Below are positions 24,870 through 57,206 of a DNA stretch of 64,000 bases, piece by piece (positions within the stretch are counted from its first letter, which is position 1; each line of letters opens with the position of its first letter). The translations under genes and the position numbers were made by a program. The notes under the pieces were generated by a model, which was given only the letters and a program-made list of their open reading frames with translations, did no database searches and was not told the DNA's origin. Source of the stretch: Asticcacaulis biprosthecium C19 (GTDB taxonomy: Bacteria > Pseudomonadota > Alphaproteobacteria > Caulobacterales > Caulobacteraceae). Where the stretch lies: contig NZ_GL883080.1 in NCBI RefSeq assembly GCF_000204015.1, forward strand, positions 402,504-466,503, given 5' to 3'.

Positions 24870-26534
24870 CTATGGCTGCGTCAGCAGGTTAGGATCGATG
24901 AATTGGCGCGGAATGCCCGGTCCCTGAAACCAGGCGCCCAGCCAGGACCCACCGCCGCCATTGAAATACTCGACCCGAATGACGTGCTGCCCGGGCTGGA
25001 GTTCGACACTGCCGGTCGCCGTGATGACGCCGTGGTCGCCGTCATTGTCGACGACCGTCGCGCCGTTGATATACAGTTTGCTGCCGTCGTCTGACGCCAG
25101 GAAGAAGTCATAGGCGCCGGCGGTGTCGATGCGGATCTTGCCTTCGAAGACAACCGCGACAGCATCGGCGCGCGGCAGGTTCAGACCGTCGATGGTGAAT
25201 TCGTAAGAGGTCCCTGATGCGACGGGCTCGATTCGCGAGAAGTCGGGTAGGCGGACCGGGGATTCGGGCAGCAGATAGACCTTGTGCGTCAGGCCTTGTG
25301 GTTTGGCGGCGTCCAGCTCGAGGATGCGAAAATAGCCGGTGGCCGGAACGCTGGCGGGCTGACCGTCGACGAAGAGGGTGGCGCGTACGATGGTGCTTTT
25401 GCGAATCTCGACGGGGCCGGTATAGAGCGGAGAATCGTGTGTCGGAACGGAGTTGTCGAGCGTGTAGCGCAGGTCTCCGACGCTGTTGGGATTGCGGAGC
25501 GTCATCTGCGCTGACCGGTTGATAAACAGGCCGCCGGAGGGCGTATTGCCATCGTTTGTCGGCTCGATCACCGGCGAGGCGTAGAAGCTGCTGATGCGAT
25601 AGGCCTGTCTGGGCATCGGCTCGCCTTTAAGGACAGGCCGGACGGGGCGGCCCAACCACGCATAGGGAATGTCGACGCCCAAAAGCCAGGCTGCCGTCGC
25701 CGGCGTGTCGAAAGTATTGATCGGCAGGTCCAGTTCGACGCCCGGCGTGACGTCGTGGCCATAAGCGATCCACGGAATCTCCAGTTCGGCCAGGGTTTCG
25801 CCACCATGGCCCTTCCCGACACCGCCATGGTCGGAGGTGACGATGATGGCGGTGTCGTCGGCGATGCCGGCGTCGGAGACCGCCTGACGGATCAGTCCGA
25901 TCAGACGGTCGGCCTTGGTGACGGAGGCGTAGTAGTCGGGGGTGCCGTGGCCGTATTCATGCCCGGCGTGATCGACATGATCGAGATGGACGAACAGGAA
26001 TTGCGGGCGTTTGGCCTTGATATAGTCGACGGCCAGGGCGGTCGTGGCGTCTTCGCTGGCACCATTGACGTTGTAGTCGACAAAGCGGTGATCATAGAGG
26101 TTGCCAAAACCACTCCAGTGATAGATCGCGCCGACCTCCCAGTCCGGGTGTTGGTCGGTAATCACTTGAAAGATCGAAGGAAAAAAGGCGCCGGAGCCGG
26201 TGACTGAGGTCGGAAAGCCAAACTCCCCGACGCGCCAGTCGTTGCTGGTCACGCCATGCTGCTCTGGTCCGGCGCCACCGATCATGGAGGCCCAGTTGGC
26301 GCTGCTGGTAGTGGGCAAAACCCCACGGGCATGCAGGCTCCAGCTACCGTTTTTCATCATGTCGTGCAGTACGGGCGTGTCCGCCTTCAGGATGCCGTCT
26401 GGGCTCAGTCCGTCGATGCCAATGATAACGACGTGGCTGGGTTTGGCGGAGGTTGCGGCATCGGCCAGGGCCGCGCCCGGCAGGCAGGTCAGGAGAGCGA
26501 ACAGCAGCGAAAATCTGCGGATCGGGTTTGTCAT
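24870..26534 (-). CDS. secreted alkaline-phosphatase-superfamily hydrolase with chitobiase-C and PA14 domains
   Basis: 554 residues with a signal peptide (FSLLFALLTCLPGAALA). The catalytic domain has VVIIGIDGLSPDG (metal Asp 41), the nucleophile region LPTTSSANWASM (Thr 75 or 76), HLDHVDHAGHEYGHG and TSDHGGVGKGHGG: a type I phosphodiesterase/nucleotide pyrophosphatase fold. Residues 335-405 form a chitobiase/hexosaminidase C-like module, and 445-550 a PA14 domain (FFLASDDGSKLYINGATVVDNDGDHG), both likely glycan-binding. Start ATG at 26534 with GGAG upstream. Last gene behind the TonB receptor. Cleaving a phosphate or phosphonate ester on a glycan is an inference. Confidence 0.85.
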   Translation of the reverse strand: MTNPIRRFSLLFALLTCLPGAALADAATSAKPSHVVIIGIDGLSPDGILKADTPVLHDMMKNGSWSLHARGVLPTTSSANWASMIGGAGPEQHGVTSNDWRVGEFGFPTSVTGSGAFFPSIFQVITDQHPDWEVGAIYHWSGFGNLYDHRFVDYNVNGASEDATTALAVDYIKAKRPQFLFVHLDHVDHAGHEYGHGTPDYYASVTKADRLIGLIRQAVSDAGIADDTAIIVTSDHGGVGKGHGGETLAELEIPWIAYGHDVTPGVELDLPINTFDTPATAAWLLGVDIPYAWLGRPVRPVLKGEPMPRQAYRISSFYASPVIEPTNDGNTPSGGLFINRSAQMTLRNPNSVGDLRYTLDNSVPTHDSPLYTGPVEIRKSTIVRATLFVDGQPASVPATGYFRILELDAAKPQGLTHKVYLLPESPVRLPDFSRIEPVASGTSYEFTIDGLNLPRADAVAVVFEGKIRIDTAGAYDFFLASDDGSKLYINGATVVDNDGDHGVITATGSVELQPGQHVIRVEYFNGGGGSWLGAWFQGPGIPRQFIDPNLLTQP

Positions 26535-26572: not shown

Positions 26573-27541
26573 TTATGTTTGTCGGCCAGGGGATGGCTGT
26601 GGGCTGTCGGTAACGAGGTGCTGAAGGACGCGCTTTTCGAGCACCAGCATGGCGTTGACCTGGTTGGTACGCATCACCAGTCCGGCGGCGAGCGGGGTGG
26701 CGGCGGCGCGAACGGCATCTGCCAGGCGCTGAAACTCCGGCCGGCCCTGGCCGCCGATGCCATGCAGGGCGCACAGTTGCCGCCAGTCCTGGACGAACGC
26801 TTCCATGAGTTGGTTGAAACGCGTCAGGCGGCCGCGGCCATCAGCGTTGTCGCTGACCAGTACGAGCTCCGATCGCAAGTCCTCGACCAGGAACTGGACC
26901 TCGGCGGCGGGCATGACGGGTGAGGGCCGATGGGTCTCGGTCAAAAGCCGCGGGCGGGACTCGGGCGCCCACGCCAAGGTCCGCCACTCTTCACGCGGGG
27001 GCGGGGCGTCGCAGGCAAATCTCCAGAATGCTGCCGTTCCGGAGGTATCGGCAACGAGGTGGATACGCTCGACCTCCGAATTGTTTTCGACATGATGGCG
27101 GCGCCAGTTGTCGAAGATCCAGGCTTCACCGGCGGCCATATGGACCGACTGGCCGTCGCAGTGAAAGCGAACGGCCGGCTGCGTGGTGATCGGAATGTGG
27201 AGGCGGACACGTGTATGCCAGTGATAGTTGATGTCGGCGTGCTCGGGTACCCCGGCGCCGGCGCCAAGACGCATCAGCCGCGATCGGCCCCACACAACGC
27301 CAAACCCGGCGAGAACCTGACGGACATAGGGCAAGGCCTCAAGCCAGGCCGTCGCCAGCATCTGGCCATGAACGGCGTCCGTCTCCTGGCCCTGCACACT
27401 GATGAGCCGTGCGGCGCTGTTGCCCGGCACCTGATCGGGATGCGGCACCCAGGCCTGAGGCGGCAGGGCGGCAATCTCGGCCTGGAGGCGCGGCACATCA
27501 AACAGGATGGGAAGTTGAAAAAAAGGCTTGGCCAGGCGCAT
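26573..27541 (-). CDS. aspartyl/asparaginyl beta-hydroxylase-like protein
   Basis: 322 residues. The central double-stranded beta-helix core shows EHADINYHWHTRVRLHIPIT, then VRFHCDGQSVHMAAGEAWIFDNWRRHHVEN, with a His-x-Asp and a distal His for Fe(II) and Arg residues suited to 2-oxoglutarate. This is the Asp/Asn beta-hydroxylase class. The C-terminal 130 residues are helical and unassigned. It starts 3 bp after the stop of the TPR-sulfotransferase gene. The substrate is unknown; pairing with sulfotransferases suggests that the hydroxyl made here could be sulfated. Confidence 0.8.
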   Translation of the reverse strand: MRLAKPFFQLPILFDVPRLQAEIAALPPQAWVPHPDQVPGNSAARLISVQGQETDAVHGQMLATAWLEALPYVRQVLAGFGVVWGRSRLMRLGAGAGVPEHADINYHWHTRVRLHIPITTQPAVRFHCDGQSVHMAAGEAWIFDNWRRHHVENNSEVERIHLVADTSGTAAFWRFACDAPPPREEWRTLAWAPESRPRLLTETHRPSPVMPAAEVQFLVEDLRSELVLVSDNADGRGRLTRFNQLMEAFVQDWRQLCALHGIGGQGRPEFQRLADAVRAAATPLAAGLVMRTNQVNAMLVLEKRVLQHLVTDSPQPSPGRQT

Positions 27542-27544
27542 GGG

Positions 27545-29461
27545 TCACACTCTGTAGCGGGTGAGAGCGTCGCCCAGAGTGTCGTGTAATGGCGACATCC
27601 AGGGGGCGTAGTTTTGCCATTGTACCGTCCCCTGCGGATCGATGGGCCGGCGCACCTGCTCGGAGCTGGGTGTGCGGACGCTGCGTTGGGTCGCGTGATA
27701 GGCCAGGCAGCCGGCTTCGTAGGGAAGGCCGCAATGGGCCAGCAAACGCCGGACCTGGCGATCGAGATCCGCTACCAGGTCCTCGTACTGAATGTGCATG
27801 ACCCGGCCCGGCAGTACGCGATCCCAATGGGCCATCACATCGAGATAGGTGCGGTAATGCCGGCCGATGTCCACCAGATCGTAGCTGAACATCTGGTTCG
27901 ATCCACCGAACAACTGCTTGAAATTGCTGAAGCCGCTGGCCATCGGCTCGCGCCGCACGTCGACGATGATGGCGTTGGGCATAAGGAGATGGATCAGGCC
28001 GATATGCCAGAAATTGTTCGGCATCTTGTCGACAAACATGGCTCGGCCCTCACGGCGATAGGTGTGGGTGTCATCGAGGTAGCGCTGGGCCAGGCGCTGC
28101 GCGGCCTCGGGTGTCATCCGCCGTGCGGCGGCCAGGTCGACAGGCAGGTGGCAGGCGGGGTCGCGGCCAAAGAGCTCAGCGGCGTAACGCTCAATCTCGG
28201 TGAGTTCCTGGGTGCCTTCGACGGAGGAGTGCGAGGCCAGAATCTGTTCGATAAGCGTCGATCCGGACCGCGGCAGGCCGACAACGAAGATGGGTACGGG
28301 CGAGGGGGCCGCCAGACCCCAGCCCTGGCGCCGTGCGAAAAAATCCACAGTAAAGCTTTGCTGCAATCGCGTGGCGCAGGCTTCAGCGACCTCAGGGCTG
28401 TAGGTGCTGGTGCGTTTGCGCAGCGCATTGCCCTGAGCGTAACTGTGCCAGGACAACTCATAAGCCCGACGGTCTTCGAGCGCCTTGCCCAGGGCAAAGC
28501 TGAGATAGATCCGGTCCATATCCTGAAGGTCGTGTTTTTGCAGGGCGGCGCGCATCCGCATGATGTCTGCGTCGCTGAAACGATAGGTTTTGAGGTTGGC
28601 CAGGCCGAACCAGGCCACGCCATAGTCCAGCTTCGCCGCCAGGGCGGCGTGATAGTCGGCAAGGGCCTCATCATACCGGCCGGTGATCTTCAGCGCATGC
28701 GCCCGCCAGTAGCGCAGGTCGGCGATTTCGGCCGCCGGCAGTGCCGGTCCGCCAGGGCTCAGCAACCGATCGTACAGAGCGATCACCGGTTCATAATCGC
28801 CGAGCGCCACGCAGGCAGCGGCATATTGTTTGAGATAGTCACGGTGGTCCGGGTTGTGGGCCAGCAGGTGCTCCGCCTGTTGCCGCGCCGGCAGGGGCTT
28901 TTGGCTTTGCAACAGGACCAGGGCGTAGTCGAGACGCGCCGCGTGATAATCGGGGGCGCGGGCCAGCACCTCCTCGAGCAGGGCTTCAGCTTCATCCAGC
29001 CGGCCGTCATCGTTCAGGATACGGGCCAGCATCCGCGCCGCGCCGATATTGTCCGCGTCACAGTCCAGGTAGTCCCGAATGACGTCTTCAGCCTCTTTCA
29101 GGTCGCCGTCGGCGTACAGACTGTTGGCAACCACCACCTGGGGCGGCAGGCTACGCAACTGGGCCAGGGTTTGAGCGGCCGCTGCCGCCTGGGCGGGGAC
29201 GCCTGTCAGCCGGTAGAGCTGTTCCAGCATGTCCCAACTTGCGGGTAGAGTCGGATTGAGACGCACCGCCTCCTGCAACGCAGCAATGGCCGAGGCAGTG
29301 TCGCCTAGACCCACGTGACAGTGGCCTTGCTCCTGATAAAGGCGGCTGAACCGCGGATAAAGCGTCTGCAGGTGGGCGAGCCTTGCGAGGGCGTCGTCGT
29401 TACGGCCTTGCTGGCGCGCCATTTGGGCCGCCTTGAGCTGGGCGTCGCGATCGGCCGTCAT
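27545..29461 (-). CDS. TPR-repeat sulfotransferase
   Basis: 638 residues. The N-terminal 360 are TPR units (for example AIAALQEAVRLNPTLPASWDMLEQLYRLTG and DEAEALLEEVLARAPDYHAARLDYALVLL). The C-terminal 260 form a PAPS-dependent sulfotransferase with the 5'-phosphosulfate loop VVGLPRSGSTLIEQILASH and the later IIVDVRREPMASGFSNF. Overlaps the upstream hydroxylase gene by 4 bp. Probably cytoplasmic, with TPRs binding the acceptor. The acceptor, perhaps a peptide or glycolipid, is not known. Confidence 0.88.
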   Translation of the reverse strand: MTADRDAQLKAAQMARQQGRNDDALARLAHLQTLYPRFSRLYQEQGHCHVGLGDTASAIAALQEAVRLNPTLPASWDMLEQLYRLTGVPAQAAAAAQTLAQLRSLPPQVVVANSLYADGDLKEAEDVIRDYLDCDADNIGAARMLARILNDDGRLDEAEALLEEVLARAPDYHAARLDYALVLLQSQKPLPARQQAEHLLAHNPDHRDYLKQYAAACVALGDYEPVIALYDRLLSPGGPALPAAEIADLRYWRAHALKITGRYDEALADYHAALAAKLDYGVAWFGLANLKTYRFSDADIMRMRAALQKHDLQDMDRIYLSFALGKALEDRRAYELSWHSYAQGNALRKRTSTYSPEVAEACATRLQQSFTVDFFARRQGWGLAAPSPVPIFVVGLPRSGSTLIEQILASHSSVEGTQELTEIERYAAELFGRDPACHLPVDLAAARRMTPEAAQRLAQRYLDDTHTYRREGRAMFVDKMPNNFWHIGLIHLLMPNAIIVDVRREPMASGFSNFKQLFGGSNQMFSYDLVDIGRHYRTYLDVMAHWDRVLPGRVMHIQYEDLVADLDRQVRRLLAHCGLPYEAGCLAYHATQRSVRTPSSEQVRRPIDPQGTVQWQNYAPWMSPLHDTLGDALTRYRV

Positions 29462-30081
29462 CCTACTGTGTCCCCTGCTGGCTTGGCCAACCAGTCAGGC
29501 TCAGCTTGCTCGGTGTCATAGTATTCGAAGATCAGATGGACCCGGTCGGTATCCCCGTCGTTGCGCACCCAATGCGGACCCAGATTGTCGACCTCGACCG
29601 CCTGTCCGGGCGGAAAATAGTGCGGAGCGCCGCCAAAGAAGGACACCACCTTGGGGTTGGTCAGGATTGGAACATGAATCTTGTGCGGCCATTTGGCGGC
29701 CAGGTTGGCGTCGATGTGTGGGTGAATGATGCCACCCGGCGGCATGGCGGCCAACATGACCCTGGGGAAGGCGGCCTGCCGGTAGCCATAGCTCGCTACT
29801 GCCTGAGCCAGTACCGGTTCCACCAGGTCGCGCCACTGCGGCCAGGCGCTGCGATCGTGCGACCGGCGCCAGTCCAGGACGCTGTCGACAAAGCGAAAAA
29901 CCATATGGCGGGTTTCCCCCAGGGCCTCGAACCGGTTCGGTTTGCCGGCATTCTCCTCGCGCCAGACCGCCTGCGGGATCGCCATGACAGCGTCGCGGAG
30001 AGGGGCGATATCGACCGGACCGAGATGGCGAACGCCTCTAGTCTTGCGGAGATTGGCGGAGGGCAGAGGGTCAGTCGTCAT
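29458..30081 (-). CDS. aspartyl/asparaginyl beta-hydroxylase domain protein
   Basis: 207 residues, essentially a stand-alone hydroxylase domain. MPPGGIIHPHIDANLAAKWPHKIHVPILTNPKVVSFF gives the HxD iron ligands. GQAVEVDNLGPHWVRNDGDTDRVHLIFEYYD gives the distal His and the Arg for 2-oxoglutarate. Overlaps both neighbours by 4 bp (ATGA junctions), so production is coupled to the two sulfotransferases. It belongs to the same broad family as the protein at 26573-27541 but is much shorter, so the two probably act on different positions or substrates. Confidence 0.85.
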   Translation of the reverse strand: MTTDPLPSANLRKTRGVRHLGPVDIAPLRDAVMAIPQAVWREENAGKPNRFEALGETRHMVFRFVDSVLDWRRSHDRSAWPQWRDLVEPVLAQAVASYGYRQAAFPRVMLAAMPPGGIIHPHIDANLAAKWPHKIHVPILTNPKVVSFFGGAPHYFPPGQAVEVDNLGPHWVRNDGDTDRVHLIFEYYDTEQAEPDWLAKPAGDTVG

Positions 30082-30734
30082 CTCGCGTCCTCGAAACTAT
30101 AGCCGAACAGGTCGAGATCCTGAGCATAGCGCGCCGCAACCCCCGCAATCAGGGCGTCGTCATAATAGTGGCGATAATCGCCATGGCGGCTGCCATTAAC
30201 GTGGCCGAGCGGCTGTGATGGGAAGCCAAGACGGGCGCAGATGCGGTCATACGAGCCCTGCATGTCTTCGACTCGGCCGACCATATCCGTCAGGAGGGTA
30301 TTCCCGTCGTCATCGACCAGCAGTGAGGCCTGGGGCTTGAACAGGATATGGTCTTGCGGTGGCGCGACAAACAGGAAGTGGTGCATGACCTCGCGGGGGG
30401 CGCGCTGAAAGGCATCGCTGTCGCGCAACATGAAGGCGCAGTAGGAAACGAAACGCGCGAACGGATTGCGCACGAAGGCAAACTTGAAATAGGCGGCAAA
30501 GGCGTCGTCGCCGAGATAAGGTCGCACCTGCCGCAACGACAGATGGCCGTGCTGGATGGCGGCCAGATCATGCCAAGGGAAGCGTTTGTTGACGAACAGC
30601 CCCACCTGTTCGACGTCGTCGTCACCCAGATGTTCGCGCAGCGCCTGGCGCACGGAATGGGTGCCGGTCTTGGGAACCGCCGCAAAAATGAAACGATGAT
30701 GATGGGAAATGATCACAGGGCTCAACACTTGCAA
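30078..30734 (-). CDS. sulfotransferase family 2-like protein
   Basis: 218 residues. SHHHRFIFAAVPKTGTHSVRQALREHLG carries the PAPS 5'-loop (PKTGT), and FAFVRNPFARFVSYCAFML the 3'-phosphate region. This is the carbohydrate-type family 2 layout. First of four tightly joined genes (sulfotransferase, hydroxylase, TPR-sulfotransferase, hydroxylase), separated from the TonB receptor by 55 bp holding a hairpin (30740-30767). The target is unknown. Confidence 0.82.
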   Translation of the reverse strand: MQVLSPVIISHHHRFIFAAVPKTGTHSVRQALREHLGDDDVEQVGLFVNKRFPWHDLAAIQHGHLSLRQVRPYLGDDAFAAYFKFAFVRNPFARFVSYCAFMLRDSDAFQRAPREVMHHFLFVAPPQDHILFKPQASLLVDDDGNTLLTDMVGRVEDMQGSYDRICARLGFPSQPLGHVNGSRHGDYRHYYDDALIAGVAARYAQDLDLFGYSFEDAR

Positions 30735-30739
30735 AGACA

Positions 30740-30767
30740 GCGCCCCACCTCCGGGAAGGTGGAGCGC
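30740..30767 (-). terminator. intra-operon hairpin after the TonB receptor gene
   Basis: On the minus strand GCGCTCCACCT-TCCCGG-AGGTGGGGCGC forms an 11-bp stem with one mismatch, followed by TGTCTTTG and not a full T-run. It lies between the receptor stop and the sulfotransferase start. A partial terminator or 3'-end stabiliser is likely, so that downstream genes are expressed less than the receptor. Confidence 0.55.
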
Positions 30768-30789
30768 GTCTTCATCACACAGTTTTACG

Positions 30790-33603
30790 TCAGAATTTGT
30801 AGGCCAGGCCGAACATGTAGGTCGTCCCGCTTTGGTTCTGATTGTAGAGATACTCGTTCTGTCCCCAGAACTGCGTATCCTTCTGGTTGGTCAGGTTGAT
30901 CGCATTCAGCGACAGTTGAAGCTTGGCGTTGATGTTGTAGAACGCCGCGGCGTCGACATAGGTCGATTCCTGGAAGCCACGCGTGCTGGCACTCATAACC
31001 GAACTGCTGCGGCCCGAGTACCACTTGCTGCGGTGGCTGAGCGAAGCGCGCGCGCCCCAGACCTCGGTCTCATAGTAGACGGTGGCGTTGTAGCTGGTTT
31101 TGGAGATGCCCGTGATCTCGATCGGGGCATCGACAGACGTGTAGTTGGCGACCACGCCCAGGTTATCGAAGGGGGCCGGAAGGAAGGACAACTGACCCTG
31201 TGCCACCAGTTCGAAGCCGGTGAGCGTCTTCGTGCCGGAAATATTGACTGGCATCGAGAACTCATCGACGATCGTGTTCTCATTGGCGCCCGGGATGGTG
31301 CCGGAAGGCACGCCCGTCTCGCTGAACGGGATGTTTTCGAGGTTCTGAGAATCGATGAAGTTGGTAATCTTCTTCTGGAACACGCCGGCCGAGACCAGCC
31401 CTGTCTTGCCGAAATAATATTCTACCGACAGGTCGAGCGTATCGTCCTTGTAGGGCTTGAGGTCCGGGTTGCCGCGCGAGGCCGAGATTTCGCAGTTGTT
31501 TACGGCGTCTGGCTTGCTGAAATCGCAGTCTTCGTTGGACTGAAAAGCGCTGCCCTTGGCGGCCATGGAGCCGAGACCCGGACGGTTCAGGTTCTGGGTG
31601 GCGGAAAAACGCACCAGAACGTCCGGAGTCATCTCCAGCACCGTGTTAAGGGCTGGAAGCACGCCGGAATAGCTGCCTTCAACGTCGGCCGTGCCAAGAT
31701 AGGCATAGCTGTCGCCCTGAATCCAGCCAACGCTGCGGGTGTCGGTCTGGTAACCGCGCAGACCAATATTGCCGCGGAAACGCTTGCCGAACAGTTCGCT
31801 GTCCCAGTCGGCCTGAACAAATTCCGAGATCGTTGATTCCGTCGTGTCGTAGACGTTCTCGATGTCCTGGAGTGCGCCGCCCGTCCCGTCTCTGTTCGGG
31901 CCGAAACGGTGGTATTCGTTATACTTGGCAAAGGCCTTGCCATAGTCGCCGATCAGCCAGGAGCCGAATTCGTTGGTATAGACCGAGGTGATGTCAGCGA
32001 CCGACGTGCCGCGCGTCTTGGTGCGGGTTCCGTTGACGTTGTCGTCATAGAACTTGTCGATTCCGCCTTGCGAGAAGCGGTGATAGGCAGCACCCGCCCG
32101 CAGGGTCCACACGTCCGAAAGTGCATAGCTAGCGTTGAACTCAGCTTCGCGCAGTTCGGACTGGTTGTTGAAACCGCGGTAGTAGAAAGAGTCCATGACG
32201 TAATTGTCGGGGTCGGTCGTATCCCAGTTCGGATACTGGAAAGAGGCCGAGCGGCCGTCGCTGCCATAGTCGGCGATCAGGTTGCCCCTGGCGCGCATAT
32301 ACAGCTTGTCGTCATAGGGCGTCTCATAGGTCGACTTCTCATAGCCGATATGGCCTTCGAGGGTGAGGCGATCGGACAGGTTCCACTTGCCGGTCAAGGC
32401 AATCTGATCGAAGCGGTTTTCGTTCAGCGAGCGGCGGTGTTCGCTGCCAAACGTCGTGCCTGTGACATCGGTCATGGTAACGTAGTTGCTGCTGTCCCAG
32501 GTTAGATTGTTGATCACCGACGCGGTCTGGAAGGCCGTTGGCCAAACAGTGCTGGCGGCCGTGTCGAAGGCCACCGAACCGGACGAGGCCAGCGGCCGTG
32601 TCGCGAGGTGCACTTCGCTGCGCTCTGTGGTGTATTCGCCATGCAAAACGTCCAGGGTGAGCAGCATGTTCTCGACCGGACGCCACTGTACTGCAGCGGT
32701 CAGGCCCAGGCGCTCCTGGTCTGAGTTCCAGGACGAGATGCGGTTGCCGTCGGCGAAATACAGGTCGCCGGACAGGAACTTAGCCTGCTGAGCCGTGGTC
32801 AGTTTGGAGATGTTCAGGCCCTTGGCGACCAGTTCCGCCATCTTGCCGGCGCTGGGCTGCTCGTAATTATAGGTGTTGTGGCCCTGCTCGGTGGTCTCGC
32901 GCGTGCTGTAGGCGGCCGACACAGCAATACCGAAGCGGTTGTCCCAGTTATAGCTGTACAGGGCGGCGATGCGCGGCTGGACATCTTGGGTATATTCGTT
33001 GGTGCCGATCTTGACCGACAGCGCACCCTTGCTGCCCGGCTTATAGTCAAAGGGCTTGCCGGTATAGAGGCCCACCGTTCCACCCATGCCGCCCTCTTTT
33101 TGTGCGGCTTCAAAGGTCTTTTCTACCTCTACCCGTGAAAACAACTCCGACGCGAAAATGTTGAAGTCGAAGGCGCGGTCGCGCGAACGCTGGCCACGGC
33201 TGTCCTGGGCCGAGTCGACATTGCCCAGTACTTCCATGCCGTTGAGTTGAACGCGGGCAAAATCGGGCCCCAGGCCGCGCAGGGAGATGCGACGGCCTTC
33301 GCCGGCTTCACGTGTGATCTGCACGCCGGGCAGGCGTTGAAGCGATTCTGCGAGGTTGAGTTCAGGGAACTTGGCCATGTCTTCGGCGACGATGGCATCG
33401 ATTTGAATATTCGAGCTGCGCTTCAGTCGGCGAGCATCGCTCAGCGATTTACGAAAACCGGTGATGACGACCTCGACCGGCGCGGTCTCTGCGGCCGACG
33501 ACGCGGTTTGCGATGATGTCGTGGTGTCTGTTTGCGCGAAAGAAGGCGCAGCGATCAGGAGGAGGGCGCCGGCAGCTGCGCCCGTCATGAGCATGTTCTT
33601 CAT
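30790..33603 (-). CDS. TonB-dependent outer-membrane receptor
   Basis: 937 residues with signal peptide (LMTGAAAGALLLIAAPSFAQ). The plug domain begins VVITGFRKSLSDARRLKRSS and contains VAEDMAKFPELNLAESLQRLPGVQITREAGEGRRISLRGLGPDFARVQLNG. The rest is beta-barrel, ending YMFGLAYKF with a terminal aromatic as expected. This is the large caulobacterial receptor type often tied to glycan or other scarce nutrients. It is preceded by a ladder of TTTGTG-like boxes (33694-33758) and a DeoR gene, and is followed by the sulfotransferase/hydroxylase genes. Ligand unknown. Confidence 0.93.
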   Translation of the reverse strand: MKNMLMTGAAAGALLLIAAPSFAQTDTTTSSQTASSAAETAPVEVVITGFRKSLSDARRLKRSSNIQIDAIVAEDMAKFPELNLAESLQRLPGVQITREAGEGRRISLRGLGPDFARVQLNGMEVLGNVDSAQDSRGQRSRDRAFDFNIFASELFSRVEVEKTFEAAQKEGGMGGTVGLYTGKPFDYKPGSKGALSVKIGTNEYTQDVQPRIAALYSYNWDNRFGIAVSAAYSTRETTEQGHNTYNYEQPSAGKMAELVAKGLNISKLTTAQQAKFLSGDLYFADGNRISSWNSDQERLGLTAAVQWRPVENMLLTLDVLHGEYTTERSEVHLATRPLASSGSVAFDTAASTVWPTAFQTASVINNLTWDSSNYVTMTDVTGTTFGSEHRRSLNENRFDQIALTGKWNLSDRLTLEGHIGYEKSTYETPYDDKLYMRARGNLIADYGSDGRSASFQYPNWDTTDPDNYVMDSFYYRGFNNQSELREAEFNASYALSDVWTLRAGAAYHRFSQGGIDKFYDDNVNGTRTKTRGTSVADITSVYTNEFGSWLIGDYGKAFAKYNEYHRFGPNRDGTGGALQDIENVYDTTESTISEFVQADWDSELFGKRFRGNIGLRGYQTDTRSVGWIQGDSYAYLGTADVEGSYSGVLPALNTVLEMTPDVLVRFSATQNLNRPGLGSMAAKGSAFQSNEDCDFSKPDAVNNCEISASRGNPDLKPYKDDTLDLSVEYYFGKTGLVSAGVFQKKITNFIDSQNLENIPFSETGVPSGTIPGANENTIVDEFSMPVNISGTKTLTGFELVAQGQLSFLPAPFDNLGVVANYTSVDAPIEITGISKTSYNATVYYETEVWGARASLSHRSKWYSGRSSSVMSASTRGFQESTYVDAAAFYNINAKLQLSLNAINLTNQKDTQFWGQNEYLYNQNQSGTTYMFGLAYKF

Positions 33604-33903
33604 CAGATCTCTCCAGGGATGACAAGGGGGCGGGACGATCGCGATGCACGGGACATGCTACGCAGACGACCTCAGGCGGAGCGATAGCGCTGCTTTGTGA
33701 CAATTGTGTTCTTTGTGGGCAAAAATGTGAGCTTTTGTGAATTTGTGTTGCGAATGTGTTGCTCTGGAGATGCAATTCATCAGCTTACGGCACAAGTCGT
33801 GCAGCGCGACCGGCCTGAGGTCACGCAGAGAGATGTGCGACGAGGCGAGCCGCGGCGTCGGAGACTATCTATTAAAAAAAGGGGGGGGGAGGCGTAAGCG
33901 GTC
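33604..33903. other. promoter region of the TonB-receptor operon
   Basis: 300 bp between the DeoR gene stop and the receptor start. The receptor ribosome-binding site (GGAGAGAT on the minus strand) lies next to 33603. The array of short boxes at 33694-33758 is the main feature. At about 33870-33891 a run of seven A and eight or nine G follows the DeoR gene, a homopolymer tract that could vary in length. Confidence 0.6.
33694..33758 (+). promoter_or_regulatory. ladder of seven TTTGTG-like boxes upstream of the TonB receptor
   Basis: Hexamers at 33694 (TTTGTG), 33703 (ATTGTG), 33712 (TTTGTG), 33724 (AATGTG), 33734 (TTTGTG), 33742 (TTTGTG) and 33753 (AATGTG). Steps are 9, 9, 12, 10, 8 and 11 bp, close to one helical turn. 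They lie 91-155 bp upstream of the receptor start. Short direct repeats in helical phase are typical DeoR-family operators, and a DeoR gene is adjacent. AAATGTG at about 34895 and TTTTGTGG at about 34922, before the DeoR and phosphonate genes, look related. Confidence 0.55.
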
Positions 33904-34656
33904 TCAGCCTATCAGGACTTCCGCGTCCCGCAAGGCTTCAAGCAGTTGCGCCGGCGGCGCGGTATCGGTGATAAAAATATCGACGTCCTTGAAATCAAGC
34001 GCCTTGACGATGCCTTGCCGTTCAAACTTGGTCGAGTCCGCCAGGACAACGACTCGGGACGCCAGCGGGCATAATCTGGCCTTCAAAGTCGCCTCCGGAT
34101 AATGAATATCGAGCAGGCCACGCCGTGAATCGATGGCGCTGATGGAAAAAAACGCGAGCGCCGGGGTAAACTGGCTCATGAAGGCTTCGGTGGCGGTGCC
34201 AAAGCAGGACTGGTAGTGGTCATCGATCTCGCCGCCGCCGAAAAACACCCTGCAGTCGTTTTTGCCGGCCATTTCCCGCGCGACTTCCAAGGCGTTGGTG
34301 ATGATGTTGAGATGTCGCTGCTTCGACAAAGCCCGGCTGAGCCAATAGGAGGTGGAGCCGGAGTCGATCAGGATCGTCATGCCATCTTCGACAAGCTGTG
34401 CTGCCTTGAGCGCTATAGCTTGTTTCTTTTCTGCATTCTGGTTGCGGCGGGTCAGGTACGGCGCTTCAGCGGCGGTTTCCTTCAGCGTAACGCCCCCGCG
34501 CACGCGGTAGGCCTGACCTTCGGCCTCCAACTGGCGAATGTCGCGGCGGATGGTTTCGTCGCTGACGTCAAACCGTTGCGCCAGATCCGCAATGGTGCAG
34601 GTCCGGTGCAGTTGCAGCAGATTGTAGATTTCGGACTGACGGGTTTCCTGCAGCAT
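33904..34656 (-). CDS. DeoR family transcriptional regulator
   Basis: 250 residues. The N-terminal winged helix (RQSEIYNLLQLHRTCTIADLAQRFDVSDETIRRDIRQLEAEGQAYRVRGGV) is the classic DeoR signature. The C-terminal sugar-phosphate-sensing fold shows GMTILIDSGSTSYWLSRAL, FFGGGEIDDHYQSCFG and VVVLADSTKFERQG. DeoR proteins usually sense phosphorylated metabolites. The ATG at 34656 has AGGGGA upstream; the longer open frame to 34821 lacks family sequence. It sits between the TonB operon and the divergent phosphonate operon and is well placed to control both. Confidence 0.92.
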   Translation of the reverse strand: MLQETRQSEIYNLLQLHRTCTIADLAQRFDVSDETIRRDIRQLEAEGQAYRVRGGVTLKETAAEAPYLTRRNQNAEKKQAIALKAAQLVEDGMTILIDSGSTSYWLSRALSKQRHLNIITNALEVAREMAGKNDCRVFFGGGEIDDHYQSCFGTATEAFMSQFTPALAFFSISAIDSRRGLLDIHYPEATLKARLCPLASRVVVLADSTKFERQGIVKALDFKDVDIFITDTAPPAQLLEALRDAEVLIG

Positions 34657-35092
34657 GCGTCCCCTGGACAGTAATCCTGGCTCGTCGAGATGTGGTGCCT
34701 TTACAACCGCTTGCCGGCCAATGCCACTTAAAAGTCGTGGCGACGCTTCTTCATCGTGAAGCGCGACCGGTCGTTGCTGCATCATTTCACGCACGCCCAT
34801 CCTCACCCGTTCAACGGCCATACGTTTCGTCAGCCAGTTTTAAAGTCCTTGAGCCGGCTTATCGACCGACACTGGCGCTCTGTCGTAAGGGCTAAATGTG
34901 ACATAAATAACCTAAAAGCGAAGTTTTGTGGAGTTCTGTATTTTTCACGAGGCATTAAATTGGTAAATTGTCATAAATCCGACCGAAAGCCACGCAAACC
35001 TGTCATCATTGTAGGGTAGTCGACTTTGCGACGAGGCTGAAACCGGATGCGACGCCTTTCTGAAGCTTGACCCAATTCCCAGGAGCACAATC
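34657..35092. other. divergent control region between DeoR gene and phosphonate operon
   Basis: 436 bp without a convincing gene. The part 34880-34990 is AT-rich (TAAATGTGACATAAATAACC, TATTTTTCACGAGGCATTAA, AATTGTCATAAATCC) and should hold promoters and operators. AAATGTG and TTTTGTGG boxes resemble those at 33694-33758. AGGAG at 35081-35085 is the ribosome-binding site for the HD gene. Confidence 0.5.
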
Positions 35093-35671
35093 ATGATCGG
35101 CACGCAGGCCCTTAAGCAGGAAATTTGCACCTTGTATCTGCGTGAGGGGCATAACGGTTACGGTCTTTATCACCTCAATCAGCTTCAGCACGGCCTGCAG
35201 GCGGCGGCGCACGCCCAGGCTCAGGGCCTGTCCGCGGCCCTGATCGTCGCCGCCCTGCTGCACGACGTCGGACATATGGTGCACGACCTGGGCGAAACGC
35301 CAGCCGAGGCGGGGGTCGACGATCGCCACGAAGAGGTGGGCGCGCAGTGGGCCGCGAAGCGTTTTCCGCCCGACGTCAGCGAACCCATCCGGCTACATGT
35401 TGCGGCCAAACGCTATCTGTGCGGAGCCGAAGACGGCTACGAGGCCACCTTGTCGAAGGACTCTGTCATCTCCCTTGCCTTGCAGGGCGGCGCAATGGAC
35501 GGCAAGGAGCAGGCGGCGTTTCTCGCCCAGGCCCATGCCCGCGAGGCGATTGCCCTGAGGCGAATCGACGATATCGCCAAAGATCCCCATGCGACGACCA
35601 GGCCGTTGGAGGTCTTCCTGGACGCCTACCTGGAACAGGCTCTGTGCGGGTCAGGCGGTGAGCCGGCATGA
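35093..35671 (+). CDS. PhnZ-like HD-domain oxygenase of phosphonate operons
   Basis: 192 residues of the HD family found in phosphonate operons (TIGR03276). Metal-ligand candidates line up with PhnZ: H33, H57-D58 (LLHDVGH), H79, H102, plus K106. PhnZ is a di-iron enzyme that splits 1-hydroxy-2-aminoethylphosphonate into glycine and phosphate. Y23 falls where PhnZ has its lid tyrosine, but the position of PhnZ Glu27 holds a Tyr (Y26), so the substrate may differ. No PhnY-type hydroxylase is in the operon. The stop overlaps the next gene (ATGA). Confidence 0.85.
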   Translation: MIGTQALKQEICTLYLREGHNGYGLYHLNQLQHGLQAAAHAQAQGLSAALIVAALLHDVGHMVHDLGETPAEAGVDDRHEEVGAQWAAKRFPPDVSEPIRLHVAAKRYLCGAEDGYEATLSKDSVISLALQGGAMDGKEQAAFLAQAHAREAIALRRIDDIAKDPHATTRPLEVFLDAYLEQALCGSGGEPA

Positions 35672-36819
35672 TGACCACGCCATCCTTCCCAACCACGACC
35701 TATGATCTGGCCATTGTCGGCGCCGGCGTCGTGGGGCTGGCCCATGCGTACCTGGCCGCATCGGCCGGACTGAGGGTTGTGGTCATCGAACGCGATGGCG
35801 CCGCCAATGGCGCGTCGGTGCGCAATTTCGGATTTATTACCGTGACCGGCCAAAAGCGCGGCGAATTCTACCAACTGGCCCGGCGTTCGCGGGCAATCTG
35901 GCAGACGGTTATCGCCGAACTGGGGCTGAGGGCCGAACACGAAGGCCTCTATATGTGCGTGCGCCGCCCGGAGTCGGAAGCTATTTTGGACGCCTTCCTG
36001 CGGACGGAGATGGGCGAAGGCTGCCGTCTGCTGGCGCCATCCGAACTACCCATCCCGCTGTCACTGGACGTCAGGCGGGTGCTGCACTCGCCCCACGAGG
36101 TACGCCTGGAATCGCGCGACGTCATCCCGCAGGTTGCCGAAAACCTTCGGCGCCGGCTCGGCGTCGATTTTCTCTACCATTGTACGGCGCTGGACGTTTC
36201 ACACGGCCAGATCGCGACCAGCCTGGGCACCGTGAGGGCCCGCAGCGTTGTTGTCTGCCAGGGCGACAATCTGAGTGGTGTCTTCGCGTCGCGTCTGCCC
36301 AGCTTCGGCGTAAGTCGCTGCAAGCTGCAGATGTTGCGGCTGGCCTCGCCCGGCTATCGTCTGCCGGGTTCGATTATGTCCGACCTGGGGCTGGTGCGCT
36401 ATCTGGGTTACAGCGAGTTGGATGAGGCCGCCGCACTCAAAATTCGACTGGAGTCCGAGCAGCCACAGCACCTGAAGGCCGGCGTCCATCTGATCGTCGT
36501 GCAGGGCACCGATGGCAGTCTGGTTGTCGGCGACAGCCATAGCTATGATCATACACCCGATCCCTTTGGGCTGGAAGCCATCGATGACCTGATCCTGGAC
36601 GAGTACCGGCAAGTCCTCGGCGCACCACCGCCCGTGCTGGAGCGCTGGATCGGCACCTATGCCGTGTCGGATCAGCAGTTATACTTCATCGATACGCCCG
36701 ATACCGACGTGCGCCATGTCGTGGTCACCTGTGGCGCGGGGGCGTCCACCGCCTTCGGTATCGCCGAAAAGACGCTTTCAAGCCTGGGAGTCGAGCTTCA
36801 TGCCACCATCGTCGGATAA
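35668..36819 (+). CDS. TIGR03364-type FAD-dependent oxidoreductase (phosphonate locus)
   Basis: 383 residues of the DAO fold. The dinucleotide-binding start is DLAIVGAGVVGLAHAYLAASAGLRVVVIERD; the next segment GASVRNFGFITVTGQ and C-terminal VVVTCGAGASTAFGIAE are as in TIGR03364 proteins. That family sits in phosphonate operons, and oxidation of 2-aminoethylphosphonate or an N-alkyl derivative to phosphonoacetaldehyde would feed the next gene, PhnX. Coupled to the HD gene by an ATGA overlap; the phnX start lies 20 bp inside its end. Confidence 0.85.
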   Translation: MMTTPSFPTTTYDLAIVGAGVVGLAHAYLAASAGLRVVVIERDGAANGASVRNFGFITVTGQKRGEFYQLARRSRAIWQTVIAELGLRAEHEGLYMCVRRPESEAILDAFLRTEMGEGCRLLAPSELPIPLSLDVRRVLHSPHEVRLESRDVIPQVAENLRRRLGVDFLYHCTALDVSHGQIATSLGTVRARSVVVCQGDNLSGVFASRLPSFGVSRCKLQMLRLASPGYRLPGSIMSDLGLVRYLGYSELDEAAALKIRLESEQPQHLKAGVHLIVVQGTDGSLVVGDSHSYDHTPDPFGLEAIDDLILDEYRQVLGAPPPVLERWIGTYAVSDQQLYFIDTPDTDVRHVVVTCGAGASTAFGIAEKTLSSLGVELHATIVG

Positions 36820-37648
36820 TTCGCCCATCAAGGCCTGCATCTTCGACTGGGCCGGTACCATGATCGACTTTGGCTGCTGCGCGCCGGTCGTCGCCTTGCA
36901 TGGTGCCTTCGCTGAGATCGGTTTGTCGTTGAGCGACGCCGAAGCCCGCGCTGATATGGGCATGGCCAAGCGGGCGCACATTCACGCCATCCTGAGCCGG
37001 GCGCCGCAAAGATCGGCTTTCGAGGCCATGGCTGGGCGTGCGCCGGCGGACGCCGATATCGACGACCTGTTTCGCCGGGTTGAACCCAGGATGGTGGCCG
37101 CAGCCGGGCAGCATACGCGCCTGATCGACGGGGCAACTGAACTGGTGCGCTATCTTCGGACGAAAGGTGTCAGGATTGGCTCGGGAACCGGCTATAGCCG
37201 GTCGATGATGGGCCAGATCCTTGCCGCCGCCGCCGACCAGGGCTACGCGCCGGATCTGGTGGTCTGCGCCGGTGAAACCCTGGAGGGTCGGCCGTCGCCT
37301 TTGATGACCTGGAAGGCCCTTGTCGAACTGGGCGTCTGGCCGGCCCGCACGGCGATCAAGGTCGATGATGCGGTGGTCGGCATCCACGAAGGCTGCGAAG
37401 CCGGCACCTGGACGCTGGGTGTGGCTGCCAGCGGCAACGGCGTCGGTCTGCCGCTTGACGCTTTCCTGTCCCTGACGCCGGAGCAACGCCAGGCGCGCAC
37501 CATGCCGGCGGCTCAGGCTTTGGCGGAGGCCGGGGCGGACTACGTCGTGGGCAGCGTGGCGGATATCCTGGGCCTGCTGCCAGAGATCGAAGATCGTATC
37601 CGCGCCGGCGAACGCCCCGGCACAGCGCCTTGCCGCATCAGTATTTAG
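36800..37648 (+). CDS. phnX: phosphonoacetaldehyde hydrolase (phosphonatase)
   Basis: 282 residues of the HAD superfamily. The nucleophile motif FDWAGTMIDFG has the Asp-Trp-Ala-Gly-Thr form special to phosphonatase, and MGMAKRAHIHAIL carries the Schiff-base Lys that activates phosphonoacetaldehyde. GSGTGYSRSMM and IKVDDAVVGIHEGCEAGTWTLGVA complete the HAD motifs. Cleaves the C-P bond to acetaldehyde and phosphate in the cytoplasm. The ATG at 36800 gives the family length. Third gene of the operon. Confidence 0.95.
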   Translation: MPPSSDNSPIKACIFDWAGTMIDFGCCAPVVALHGAFAEIGLSLSDAEARADMGMAKRAHIHAILSRAPQRSAFEAMAGRAPADADIDDLFRRVEPRMVAAAGQHTRLIDGATELVRYLRTKGVRIGSGTGYSRSMMGQILAAAADQGYAPDLVVCAGETLEGRPSPLMTWKALVELGVWPARTAIKVDDAVVGIHEGCEAGTWTLGVAASGNGVGLPLDAFLSLTPEQRQARTMPAAQALAEAGADYVVGSVADILGLLPEIEDRIRAGERPGTAPCRISI

Positions 37649-37748: not shown

Positions 37749-39029
37749 ATGACCAGCGCCACCAAGACCACCGCTTTGACGCGGTGGCTGCAGACGGCCC
37801 CTGCGCCGCTGTTCGTTCTCTATGGCGGGCTGATGGCGTTTGGCGCCTATTTCGCCATGTACGCCTTTCGCAAACCGTTCACGGCCGCCAGCTATGCCGA
37901 GGTCGGCGACTGGGTGGTCGACTACAAGATCGCCTTGGTAATCGCACAGGTCTTCGGCTATGCCCTGTCGAAGCTGATCGGCATCCGCTTCGTGTCGGAA
38001 CTTCCTGGCCGGTGGCGGGCCCTGGCCATCGTGGTTCTGATCGGTCTGGCCCAACTGGCCCTGGTCGGGTTTGCGGTCGTCCCGGCACCGCTCAATATCG
38101 TCTTCTTGTTTCTGAACGGCCTGCCGCTGGGCATGATCTGGGGGCTGGTCTTCGGTTTCCTGGAGGGGCGGCGGACTTCGGAAATCCTGGGCTCTATCCT
38201 GTGCGCCAGCTTTATCGTGTCGTCGGGTGTGGTCAAATCGGTCGGCAAATGGTTGATGCTGCAAGGCTATGCCGATGAATTCACCATGCCGGCGATCACC
38301 GGCCTGTTGTTCGCGCCGCTGTTGGCCGTCTGCGTCTGGGGATTGACGCACCTCCCGCCGCCCAACGCCGCCGACATGGCTGCCCGCGTCGAACGCGCGC
38401 CTATGGACAAGGCGGCGCGACGCGTTTTGTTTTCCGCCTACGCACCGGGCCTGGTCGCTTTAATCCTGCTGTATGTCATGCTGACGGCGCTAAGGGATTT
38501 CCGCGATAATTTCGCCGCCGAGATTTGGAAGGGCGTTGGTCTGGGCGAGCAGGCCGCGCTGTTCACGCTGACTGAGATACCCATCGGACTGTTGGTCCTG
38601 TGCGTCATGGCCGGGCTTGCCATTTTTCGTAGCAATCGGACCGCCATCTTCGCCAATCTCGTTCTTATCGGGGTTGGTTTGTGCCTGACCGCCGGAGCCA
38701 GTATCGTCTTTTATCTGGGACTCATCGGCCCGGTGCTTTGGATGGTGCTTTTAGGCGCCGGGCTCTATCTGGCCTATACGCCCTATAACGGTCTGATGTT
38801 CGACCGCCTGCTGGCCGCGACCGGCAAAGTGGGGACGGCAGGGTTTCTCATCTACGTCGCCGATTCGAGCGGCTATCTGGGCTCGGTCGCATTGCTTTTG
38901 TTCAAGAATTTCAGTGGTCTTCACCTGCCGTGGGTGGAATTCATGATCGGGGCATCGGCGCTCAGCGGCGTCGTCGGGCTGGGGCTGCTGATCTACGCCA
39001 GCCTTTATTTCTCGCGGCGGTTTTCGTAA
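37749..39029 (+). CDS. MFS-like transporter, DUF5690 family
   Basis: 426 residues with about twelve membrane helices. The N-terminal YGGLMAFGAYFAMYAFRKPFTAASY and LEGRRTSEILGSILCASFIVSSGVVKSVG segments are typical of DUF5690, an MFS-related family. It follows phnX after 100 bp on the same strand, so uptake of an aminophosphonate or export of a product is the natural guess. No substrate is established from sequence. Confidence 0.8.
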   Translation: MTSATKTTALTRWLQTAPAPLFVLYGGLMAFGAYFAMYAFRKPFTAASYAEVGDWVVDYKIALVIAQVFGYALSKLIGIRFVSELPGRWRALAIVVLIGLAQLALVGFAVVPAPLNIVFLFLNGLPLGMIWGLVFGFLEGRRTSEILGSILCASFIVSSGVVKSVGKWLMLQGYADEFTMPAITGLLFAPLLAVCVWGLTHLPPPNAADMAARVERAPMDKAARRVLFSAYAPGLVALILLYVMLTALRDFRDNFAAEIWKGVGLGEQAALFTLTEIPIGLLVLCVMAGLAIFRSNRTAIFANLVLIGVGLCLTAGASIVFYLGLIGPVLWMVLLGAGLYLAYTPYNGLMFDRLLAATGKVGTAGFLIYVADSSGYLGSVALLLFKNFSGLHLPWVEFMIGASALSGVVGLGLLIYASLYFSRRFS

Positions 39030-56976: not shown

Positions 56977-57206
56977 AAAATTTGTGCTCCGAAATCTGCA
57001 ACGGAGACGCTAACAGGAGTGGGCTGCCATCGCAAGATGCCGGTTATGCCCGATTTGTGACTCGCGTCCCAGGTAAGACGGCTTGATTCGTCATAAAGGC
57101 GCGGTAAAAGCATAGCGGGCGGATAAGGTTTTAGTAGCGTACGAACCACGCCACCATGCCCGAAAGCGTATGTATCGGGCTTACATTCGTTTTCGGAGAT
57201 TTTAGG

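Follow-up and report, generated by a model that had tools for sequence, protein, structure and literature searches.

A conserved TonB receptor operon with two sulfotransferases and two PF05118 hydroxylases in a phosphorus-scavenging context in Asticcacaulis biprosthecium and its relatives

What do two sulfotransferases and two hydroxylases act upon when they are encoded directly behind a TonB-dependent receptor? The question is raised by a locus of Asticcacaulis biprosthecium C19 that lies in the 64,000-nucleotide stretch of contig NZ_GL883080.1 analysed here (the window). The answer that we favour, at a probability of roughly 35%, is that the locus is a phosphorus-scavenging uptake operon with a dedicated cytoplasmic hydroxylation-sulfation cassette, and that this cassette acts on the receptor.

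Coordinates and profile searches bear out the genes, order and spacing given in a preliminary description of this DNA: the minus-strand operon reads TonB receptor, ST2, HYD1, TPR-ST and HYD2 (Table 1). ST2 and HYD1 overlap by 4 bp, as do HYD1 and TPR-ST, while a gap of 3 bp separates TPR-ST from HYD2; the intergenic gaps of the operon are 55 (or 73), 3 and 38 bp, and all other junctions overlap. The start of ST2 may be the GTG at 30716 and not the TTG at 30734, since relatives start at that residue. The receptor has a signal-like N-terminus; the cassette enzymes have none. A sixth gene, encoding a PF01663 phosphodiesterase with an ATG start and a signal-like N-terminus, follows HYD2 after 38 bp on the same strand and is a member of the operon in A. 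biprosthecium C19. It is also found directly downstream in Asticcacaulis sp. AC402 and in two Erythrobacter MAGs (loci L051, L086 and L098). The preliminary description had overlooked this gene, together with the phosphonate context and the occurrence of ST2-HYD1 on its own in Lysobacter.

Table 1. Features of the operon and its surroundings; positions are those of the window
Feature	Position	Strand	Evidence or remark
TonB-dependent receptor (TBDT), first gene, 937 aa, signal peptide	30790-33603	-	PF00593/PF07715, TIGR01782
Receptor residues 562-572 (NEYHRFGPNRD), insertion	31888-31920	-	cassette receptors only
ST2, PF03567 sulfotransferase, 218 aa	30078-30734	-	PF03567 E 7e-13
HYD1, PF05118 2-oxoglutarate/Fe(II) hydroxylase, 207 aa	29458-30081	-	PF05118 37.6 bits, cut-off 22.6
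TPR-ST, TPR repeats and PF13469 sulfotransferase domain, 638 aa	27545-29461	-	PF13469 164.5 bits
HYD2, PF05118 hydroxylase with C-terminal extension, 322 aa	26573-27541	-	PF05118 52.5 bits, cut-off 22.6
Exported PF01663 phosphodiesterase/nucleotide pyrophosphatase, chitobiase-C-like and PA14 domains (sixth gene)	24870-26534	-	
Receptor upstream region, repeated CACAAA elements	33604-33903	-	candidate operator of DeoR-family regulator
DeoR/GlpR-family transcription regulator	33904-34821	-	PF00455, PF08220
PhnZ/TmpB-like HD-domain oxygenase	35093-35671	+	TIGR03276 189 bits, below cut-off 214.6; relative, not certain member
PbfD-type FAD-dependent aminophosphonate oxidase	35668-36819	+	TIGR03364 362 bits, cut-off 285
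Phosphonoacetaldehyde hydrolase PhnX	36803-37648	+	TIGR01422 303.7 bits, cut-off 220
DUF5690 protein, probable membrane transporter of phosphonate cluster	37749-39029	+	PF18943 503 bits

The first line of evidence that these genes form a unit is their conservation. In 38 loci of Caulobacterales and Sphingomonadales the five genes are colinear, in the same order and at 50% identity or more, and the spacings of -4, -4 and +3 are mostly preserved. Because order and most spacings are kept in these 38 loci and the catalytic residues are invariant, the arrangement is not due to chance. Of 299 Caulobacterales genomes drawn without bias, 8 carry receptor orthologues (at least 73% identity), and it is these same 8, and no others, that have HYD1 orthologues of at least 70% identity. 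The preliminary description had proposed looking for conserved co-occurrence of the enzymes with the receptor, which is thus found (38 loci, 8/8 genomes), and had regarded shuffling of the genes in relatives, or loss of the iron or PAPS residues, as evidence against its reading; the order is strictly kept, and the residues are invariant or conserved in relatives. A class-wide draw of 385 genomes contains the cassette only in A. biprosthecium C19 itself and therefore adds no co-occurrence data. Distance correlations between the genes of 0.45-0.82, obtained after removal of mis-called ST2 entries, are given no weight because they lack a housekeeping baseline.

The second line of evidence is the state of the enzymes. 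Both hydroxylases exceed the curated PF05118 cut-off and carry the HxD...H iron triad and the 2-oxoglutarate-binding arginine: H122-x-D124, H170 and R180 of HYD1 are invariant in 35 sequences, and H101-x-D103, H149 and R159 of HYD2 in 21. The predicted structure of HYD1 has the AspH fold (Z 14.5), although identity with human AspH is only about 10%; PiuC is a fold-level match only (Z 12.0, predicted structure), and neither hydroxylase belongs to the PiuC-like sequence family. ST2 and TPR-ST both qualify as PAPS-dependent sulfotransferases by model score and by their 5'-phosphosulfate and 3'-phosphate loops. The PKTGTH and R89-N-P-F motifs of ST2 are invariant, and its predicted fold is nearest to heparan sulfate 6-O- and 2-O-sulfotransferases (Z 10.6 and 10.2, respectively); searching the PDB with phmmer was uninformative for HYD1 and returned no match for ST2. 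In TPR-ST, PRSGST, E419, D478 and R503/R504 are conserved, the catalytic glutamate E419 in 43/43 sequences. In sequence, its catalytic domain matches human protein-tyrosine sulfotransferases (TPST1, E 1.4e-4), but a polyketide sulfotransferase scores almost equally. Its repeats match OGT (E 1e-12), which likewise joins a TPR superhelix to a transferase domain, although OGT is a glycosyltransferase; the superhelix of TPR-ST may serve, as in OGT, as a substrate-holding arm.

The probable cargo is indicated by the surroundings. Phosphonate-degradation, phospholipase-C or phosphodiesterase genes lie beside 34/38 cassette loci and at 1 of the 39 loci in which no receptor orthologue was detected (p 3e-16; this and the other p-values of locus comparisons given here are optimistic, as related loci are not independent). 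In A. biprosthecium C19 the PbfD-type oxidase and PhnX both exceed the cut-offs of their models, and a canonical PhnW is absent from the genome; the DUF5690 gene recurs at cassette loci. The same combination of a TIGR03364 oxidase, a family with members of known activity, and PhnX without canonical PhnW is found in hydrolytic aminophosphonate clusters (the PbfD2 route; PMC10590968), the account of which mentions neither TonB nor sulfotransferases. Phosphonate or phospho head groups would be set free by exported phosphodiesterase or phospholipase-C enzymes and taken up through the TonB receptor, and PbfD-PhnX would convert 2-aminoethylphosphonate (AEP), or its N-methyl form, to acetaldehyde and phosphate. 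It is very unlikely, in our opinion, that the imported phospho(n)ate is itself the substrate of the cassette enzymes, for example with HYD1 or HYD2 replacing PhnY and making a 1-hydroxyphosphonate for the PhnZ-like oxygenase. A PhyH-type PhnY is indeed missing beside the PhnZ-like gene, and the receptor-linked oxygenases PiuC/YbiX have been suggested to transform an imported substrate (PMC12004947); but it is hard to see what sulfation of a nutrient would achieve, PhnZ is absent from some cassette loci, and PbfD-PhnX already accounts for AEP. HYD1 as a PhnY substitute was rejected, since Lysobacter carries ST2-HYD1 with no phosphonate genes.

The receptor itself scores 610.6 bits against TIGR01782 (cut-off 310); the siderophore-receptor model CirA, with a cut-off of 745, gives it 37 bits. 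Free or carrier-bound amino acids are among the substrates that PF05118 enzymes can hydroxylate, and HYD2 is closest by sequence to L-proline cis-4-hydroxylase, both of which would suit a cassette that makes a sulfated, hydroxylated small ligand (siderophore-like or a signal) to be secreted and re-imported by the receptor. Such a ligand is nevertheless highly improbable: the unit shows no gene for making a scaffold (NRPS, NIS or precursor peptide), the gaps leave no space for a small ORF, and the surroundings speak of nutrient degradation, not iron. The siderophore-like ligand of the preliminary description, and a RiPP with a small precursor gene, were accordingly rejected on the CirA score, the missing scaffold gene, the lack of precursor space and the phosphonate/phosphodiester neighbourhood.

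The third line of evidence concerns the coupling of the two reactions. In two Asticcacaulis loci (L057 and L091) HYD2 and a sulfotransferase domain form a single protein, and hydroxylase-sulfotransferase fusions are common in other Caulobacterales, which gives good support to a coupling of hydroxylation with sulfation. Adjacent pairs also exist elsewhere. Together with the strict gene order and the invariant residues, these arrangements uphold the earlier proposal of a coupled module tied to the receptor. ST2-HYD1 and TPR-ST-HYD2 would each add a hydroxyl and a sulfate to one acceptor, for which the receptor polypeptide before export is the favoured candidate. It should be noted that the fusions are not near receptors and that a receptor link was rejected as a general rule for PF05118, TonB receptors lying near 2/40 other PF05118 loci and 2/20 random loci. 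ST2 is immediately upstream of HYD1 in 78/80 loci, Lysobacter among them; the pair stands alone in Lysobacter genomes without the operon's receptor (best match 36%), where this pair at least must act on something else. Receptor-free pairs and fusions are compatible with a general envelope role, in which the cassette, under phosphorus limitation, would hydroxylate and sulfate a lipid, lipid A or a surface glycan and so provide anionic groups without phosphate. PF05118 also includes lipid hydroxylases such as LpxO, the ST2 fold is closest to glycan sulfotransferases, and the cassette sits among phosphorus-scavenging genes. We consider such remodelling rather unlikely: lipid or glycan synthesis genes do not recur in the operon, PHO boxes in the 64-kb window are not above chance (4 matches, 3.4 expected), and against the LpxO equivalog model of NCBIfam (cut-off 500) HYD2 reaches a weak 19.4 bits and HYD1 has no match.

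That the receptor is the acceptor is suggested by the wider behaviour of TPR-sulfotransferases. A TonB receptor lies within 4 kb of the TPR-ST gene in 30/40 sampled loci and 2/59 controls (p 1.5e-14). A same-strand receptor no more than 500 bp away is present at 24/40 loci and 0/59 controls (p 1e-12); these 24 are apparently co-transcribed. None of the 40 loci contains a PF05118 gene, which counts against the favoured reading. The partner receptors fall into at least 8 groups with less than 35% identity, and the cargo genes vary by locus. As TPR-STs pair with unrelated receptor families and cargo genes, a single cargo is probably not what they modify; the receptor, or something that receptors share, is the likelier acceptor. 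Some of the partner receptors have non-phosphorus cargo genes, which also argues against phosphorus-sparing remodelling. The preliminary description had named the receptor as a possible acceptor; the pairing strengthens this candidate, which we hold tentatively. An acceptor shared by many receptors, such as a TonB/ExbB-type partner or a lipoprotein, would account for TPR-STs following many receptor types and for the solitary pairs of Lysobacter; yet no candidate protein was found to recur beside the enzymes and the operon structure points to the receptor, so we judge it unlikely. More broadly, though still speculatively, enzymes encoded next to TonB receptors might sulfate them in the cytoplasm ahead of export, and in this branch hydroxylate them as well, in a general maturation system of which TPR-STs are the common part.

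Comparison of receptors with and without the cassette gave 37 cassette-specific polar positions, an enrichment of tyrosine (p 0.019, uncorrected) and one insertion of interest, with no convincing modified site. The NEYHRFGPNRD insertion is found only in receptors with the cassette, and its E563, Y564, H565 and R566 are invariant in the 21 aligned cassette receptors. Judged from the alignment, it is a candidate modified or ligand-contacting loop. Sister receptors of 46-51% identity work without the cassette, which also speaks against the favoured reading.

Among the nearest known systems are CciT-CciO of Caulobacter, PiuA-PiuC and Fiu-YbiX, in which a receptor likewise shares its transcript with a cytoplasmic Fe(II)/2OG oxygenase, there of unproven substrate (PMC12004947, PMC12004943). 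Those oxygenases are PiuC/YbiX-like, the cargo is iron and no sulfotransferase is described, whereas the present locus combines two sulfotransferases with PF05118 enzymes and genes for phosphorus cargo. A comparable case is that of Xanthomonas, where the bacterial sulfotransferase RaxST sulfates a tyrosine of RaxX, a protein encoded beside it, for export (PMC6637879). RaxX, however, is a small secreted peptide, while the present operon encodes an outer-membrane receptor as neighbour and has hydroxylases in addition. Every enzyme family of the operon is already known. Neither the receptor-plus-cassette unit nor a general coupling of TPR-STs to TonB receptors is described in the literature searched, in agreement with the earlier remark that no described pathway has this gene set. 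Whatever the acceptor, the locus supplies a candidate for an organic-phosphorus receptor, with phosphonates among its cargo, in relatives of Caulobacter and Sphingomonas. Were the acceptor the receptor, the cassette would represent a covalent maturation step for outer-membrane nutrient receptors and a bacterial counterpart of protein tyrosine sulfation and Asp/Asn hydroxylation, and a so far uncharacterised class of sulfotransferases would gain a function open to testing.

A minor observation concerns regulation. Four Asticcacaulis loci, L051, L057, L083 and L091, each with a close DeoR homologue, have two to three CACAAA/TTTGTG elements upstream; the other complete loci have 0 or 1.

The five-gene TonB receptor operon of the preliminary description proved exact in gene order and coordinates, every gene lying on the minus strand. 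Family searches assign the receptor to TIGR01782 and the enzymes of the adjoining cassette to PF03567 (sulfotransferase ST2), PF05118 (hydroxylase HYD1), TPR-PF13469 (sulfotransferase TPR-ST), and PF05118 (hydroxylase HYD2). The gene junctions include two overlaps (4 and 4 bp) and one 3 bp gap, and a sixth gene, 38 bp beyond the fifth, encodes an exported PF01663 phosphodiesterase. The iron and PAPS residues, whose loss had been named as a refutation of the proposed chemistry, are present: the iron/2-oxoglutarate ligands are invariant in HYD1 (H122, D124, H170, R180) and HYD2 (H101, D103, H149, R159), and PAPS-loop residues are kept in ST2 (PKTGTH, R89) and TPR-ST (PRSGST, E419, D478, R503/R504). 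Judged by these residues, the cassette enzymes are intact. The AlphaFold models of HYD1 and ST2 are confident (pLDDT 91 and 86, respectively); the best structural match of HYD1 is AspH (Z 14.5, rmsd 3.3, 169 residues), which leads the proline hydroxylases by no more than about 1.5 Z. For ST2, the top matches are the heparan sulfate 6-O- and 2-O-sulfotransferases, at Z 10.6 and 10.2. The TPRs of TPR-ST are OGT-like, and the best solved relatives of its sulfotransferase domain are protein-tyrosine sulfotransferases, a polyketide sulfotransferase being nearly tied.

A HYD1 search of reference genomes yielded 80 loci, which were chosen by HYD1 similarity and share descent, so that p-values overstate their independence. 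Of these, 38 carry the complete five-gene set (each gene with 50% identity or more), with the order kept and the overlaps mostly kept, in relatives of Caulobacter, Asticcacaulis, Brevundimonas, Phenylobacterium, Novosphingobium, Sphingomonas, Sphingobium, and Erythrobacter; the conserved co-occurrence that the preliminary description proposed to look for is thus borne out. In a separate, independent draw of 299 Caulobacterales genomes, the same eight, and no others, hold orthologues of both the receptor (at least 73% identity) and HYD1 (at least 70%).

The receptor gene is preceded by a DeoR/GlpR-type regulator gene and by divergent genes for a PhnZ-like oxygenase, a TIGR03364 (PbfD-type) oxidase, the phosphonoacetaldehyde hydrolase PhnX, and a DUF5690 protein. 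PbfD enzymes oxidize 2-aminoethylphosphonate and its N-methyl derivative to phosphonoacetaldehyde; those of the PbfD2 subgroup mostly do without PhnW (PMC10590968), which is consistent with the lack of any PhnW above cut-off in the source genome. CACAAA repeats upstream of the receptor occur in the source genome and at Asticcacaulis loci with a close DeoR homologue, and hardly anywhere else; since the repeats track this homologue, the regulator probably controls the operon. Phosphonate, phospholipase C-type, or phosphodiesterase genes accompany 34 of the 38 complete loci vs 1 of 39 loci without a detected receptor orthologue, flanking genes being taken from a simple ORF script and labeled by sequence similarity, and three of the 39 (L060, L070, L099) being cassette loci truncated by a contig end. 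PhnZ- and DUF5690-type genes are present at L060. Cassette-free sister receptors in Caulobacter (46–51% identity; for loci L132–L139, 45–46% by BLAST and 49–50% by genome search) are transcribed divergently from a PI-PLC-like gene, at L132–L139 in every case, which suggests a cargo of phosphoinositides or glycerophosphodiesters. Together with the phospho-genes of the cassette loci, this ties the receptor family overall to phosphorus esters.

The operon combines two recurrent links, one between hydroxylase and sulfotransferase and the other between receptor and TPR-sulfotransferase. As to the former, HYD1 lies immediately downstream of ST2 in 78 of the 80 loci. Those of Lysobacter and Luteimonas are among them; here the pair has no other cassette gene beside it and mostly sits with a hemolysin-III gene on one side and prfC on the other. 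At L057 (Asticcacaulis sp. AC466) and L091 (A. currens), HYD2 and a C-terminal PF13469 domain share one reading frame. Single-chain PF05118-PF13469 fusions of 600–740 aa, HYD2-like in their hydroxylase part, are common at other Caulobacterales PF05118 loci, away from TonB receptors and often followed by a TPR-ST. Gene fusion and adjacency are classic hallmarks of enzymes that act one after the other or together. The suggested coupling of hydroxylation with sulfation is upheld by this adjacency and by the L057 and L091 fusions, and we infer that the hydroxylase and sulfotransferase pairs work on one acceptor.

The second link was seen in 40 TPR-ST loci from 40 Caulobacteraceae genomes (L207–L246), searched without regard to the cassette and hand-picked from the result list, mostly among high-scoring entries. 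Thirty of the 40 have a TonB receptor no more than 4 kb away, vs 2 of 59 ordinary control genes at random loci of related genomes; on the same strand and within 500 bp, in either gene order, the counts are 24/40 and 0/59, these 24 pairs being apparently operonic. The two other TPR-STs of the source genome lie 148 bp and 3.6 kb, respectively, from a receptor gene. Caulobacteraceae TPR-STs are thus general neighbors of TonB receptors. The partner receptors divide into eight or more groups with less than 35% identity between them, the window receptor family being absent among them, and the nearby cargo genes encode phosphonate enzymes, enolase-superfamily enzymes, amino-acid permeases, an aldehyde dehydrogenase, and a tryptophan halogenase; given this variety, a sulfotransferase role specific to one cargo is unlikely. 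No PF05118 hydroxylase gene was found at the 40 loci.

A hydrophobic N-terminus is present in the receptor and in none of the four cassette enzymes, so the reactions would occur in the cytoplasm. The simplest common acceptor would be the receptor chain, modified there ahead of export, for which the sulfation of RaxX by RaxST (PMC6637879) may serve as a model. Against the receptor as acceptor, ST2-HYD1 pairs and hydroxylase-sulfotransferase fusions are also found away from receptors, Lysobacter has no window-type receptor, and no modified site could be singled out from the receptor sequence. The most probable of four alternatives is that a lipid or glycan is sulfated, a change of the envelope that would spare phosphorus. 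A different envelope protein as target comes next; a role in processing an imported compound ranks third, and a secreted ligand is the least probable. Receptor sulfation, if shown, would be categorically new. The operon belongs with receptor operons carrying auxiliary enzymes, the nearest described being the receptor-oxygenase pairs for iron CciT-CciO, PiuA-PiuC, and Fiu-YbiX (PMC12004947, PMC12004943). The open-licence full texts searched contain no description of a system that combines a TonB receptor with TPR-sulfotransferases or with both sulfotransferases and hydroxylases.

Locations of features in the window and at compared loci (L numbers)
Feature	Location	Remark
DeoR-PhnZ intergenic region	window 34822-35092	TTTTGTG and TTGTCATAAATC; like receptor upstream repeats and half PHO box
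TPR-STs near receptor genes, source genome	L205:6424-10636, L206:3152-11302	
PF05118-PF13469 fusions	L147, L151, L155, L160, L162, L165, L169 and others in L145-L184	
ST2-HYD1 without rest of cassette, Lysobacter relatives	L088-L092, L095, L100-L106, L108-L111, L117-L120, L122, L126	fixed chromosomal site
TonB receptor, tryptophan halogenase, sulfotransferase gene in series	L219:3055-5700	another modification-type enzyme beside a receptor
1451-aa protein	window 10639-14994	
947-aa protein	window 57156-59999	

Elsewhere in the window, the 1451-aa protein has a Walker-A-like GGSSGNGKS, low third-position GC, and no matches in Pfam (E 1e-3) or PADLOC, and is possibly an unrecognised, horizontally acquired NTPase. 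In the 947-aa protein, an N-terminal repeat resembling GTNGTNGT is accompanied by glycine-rich stretches and by RTX-like GGxGxD repeats.
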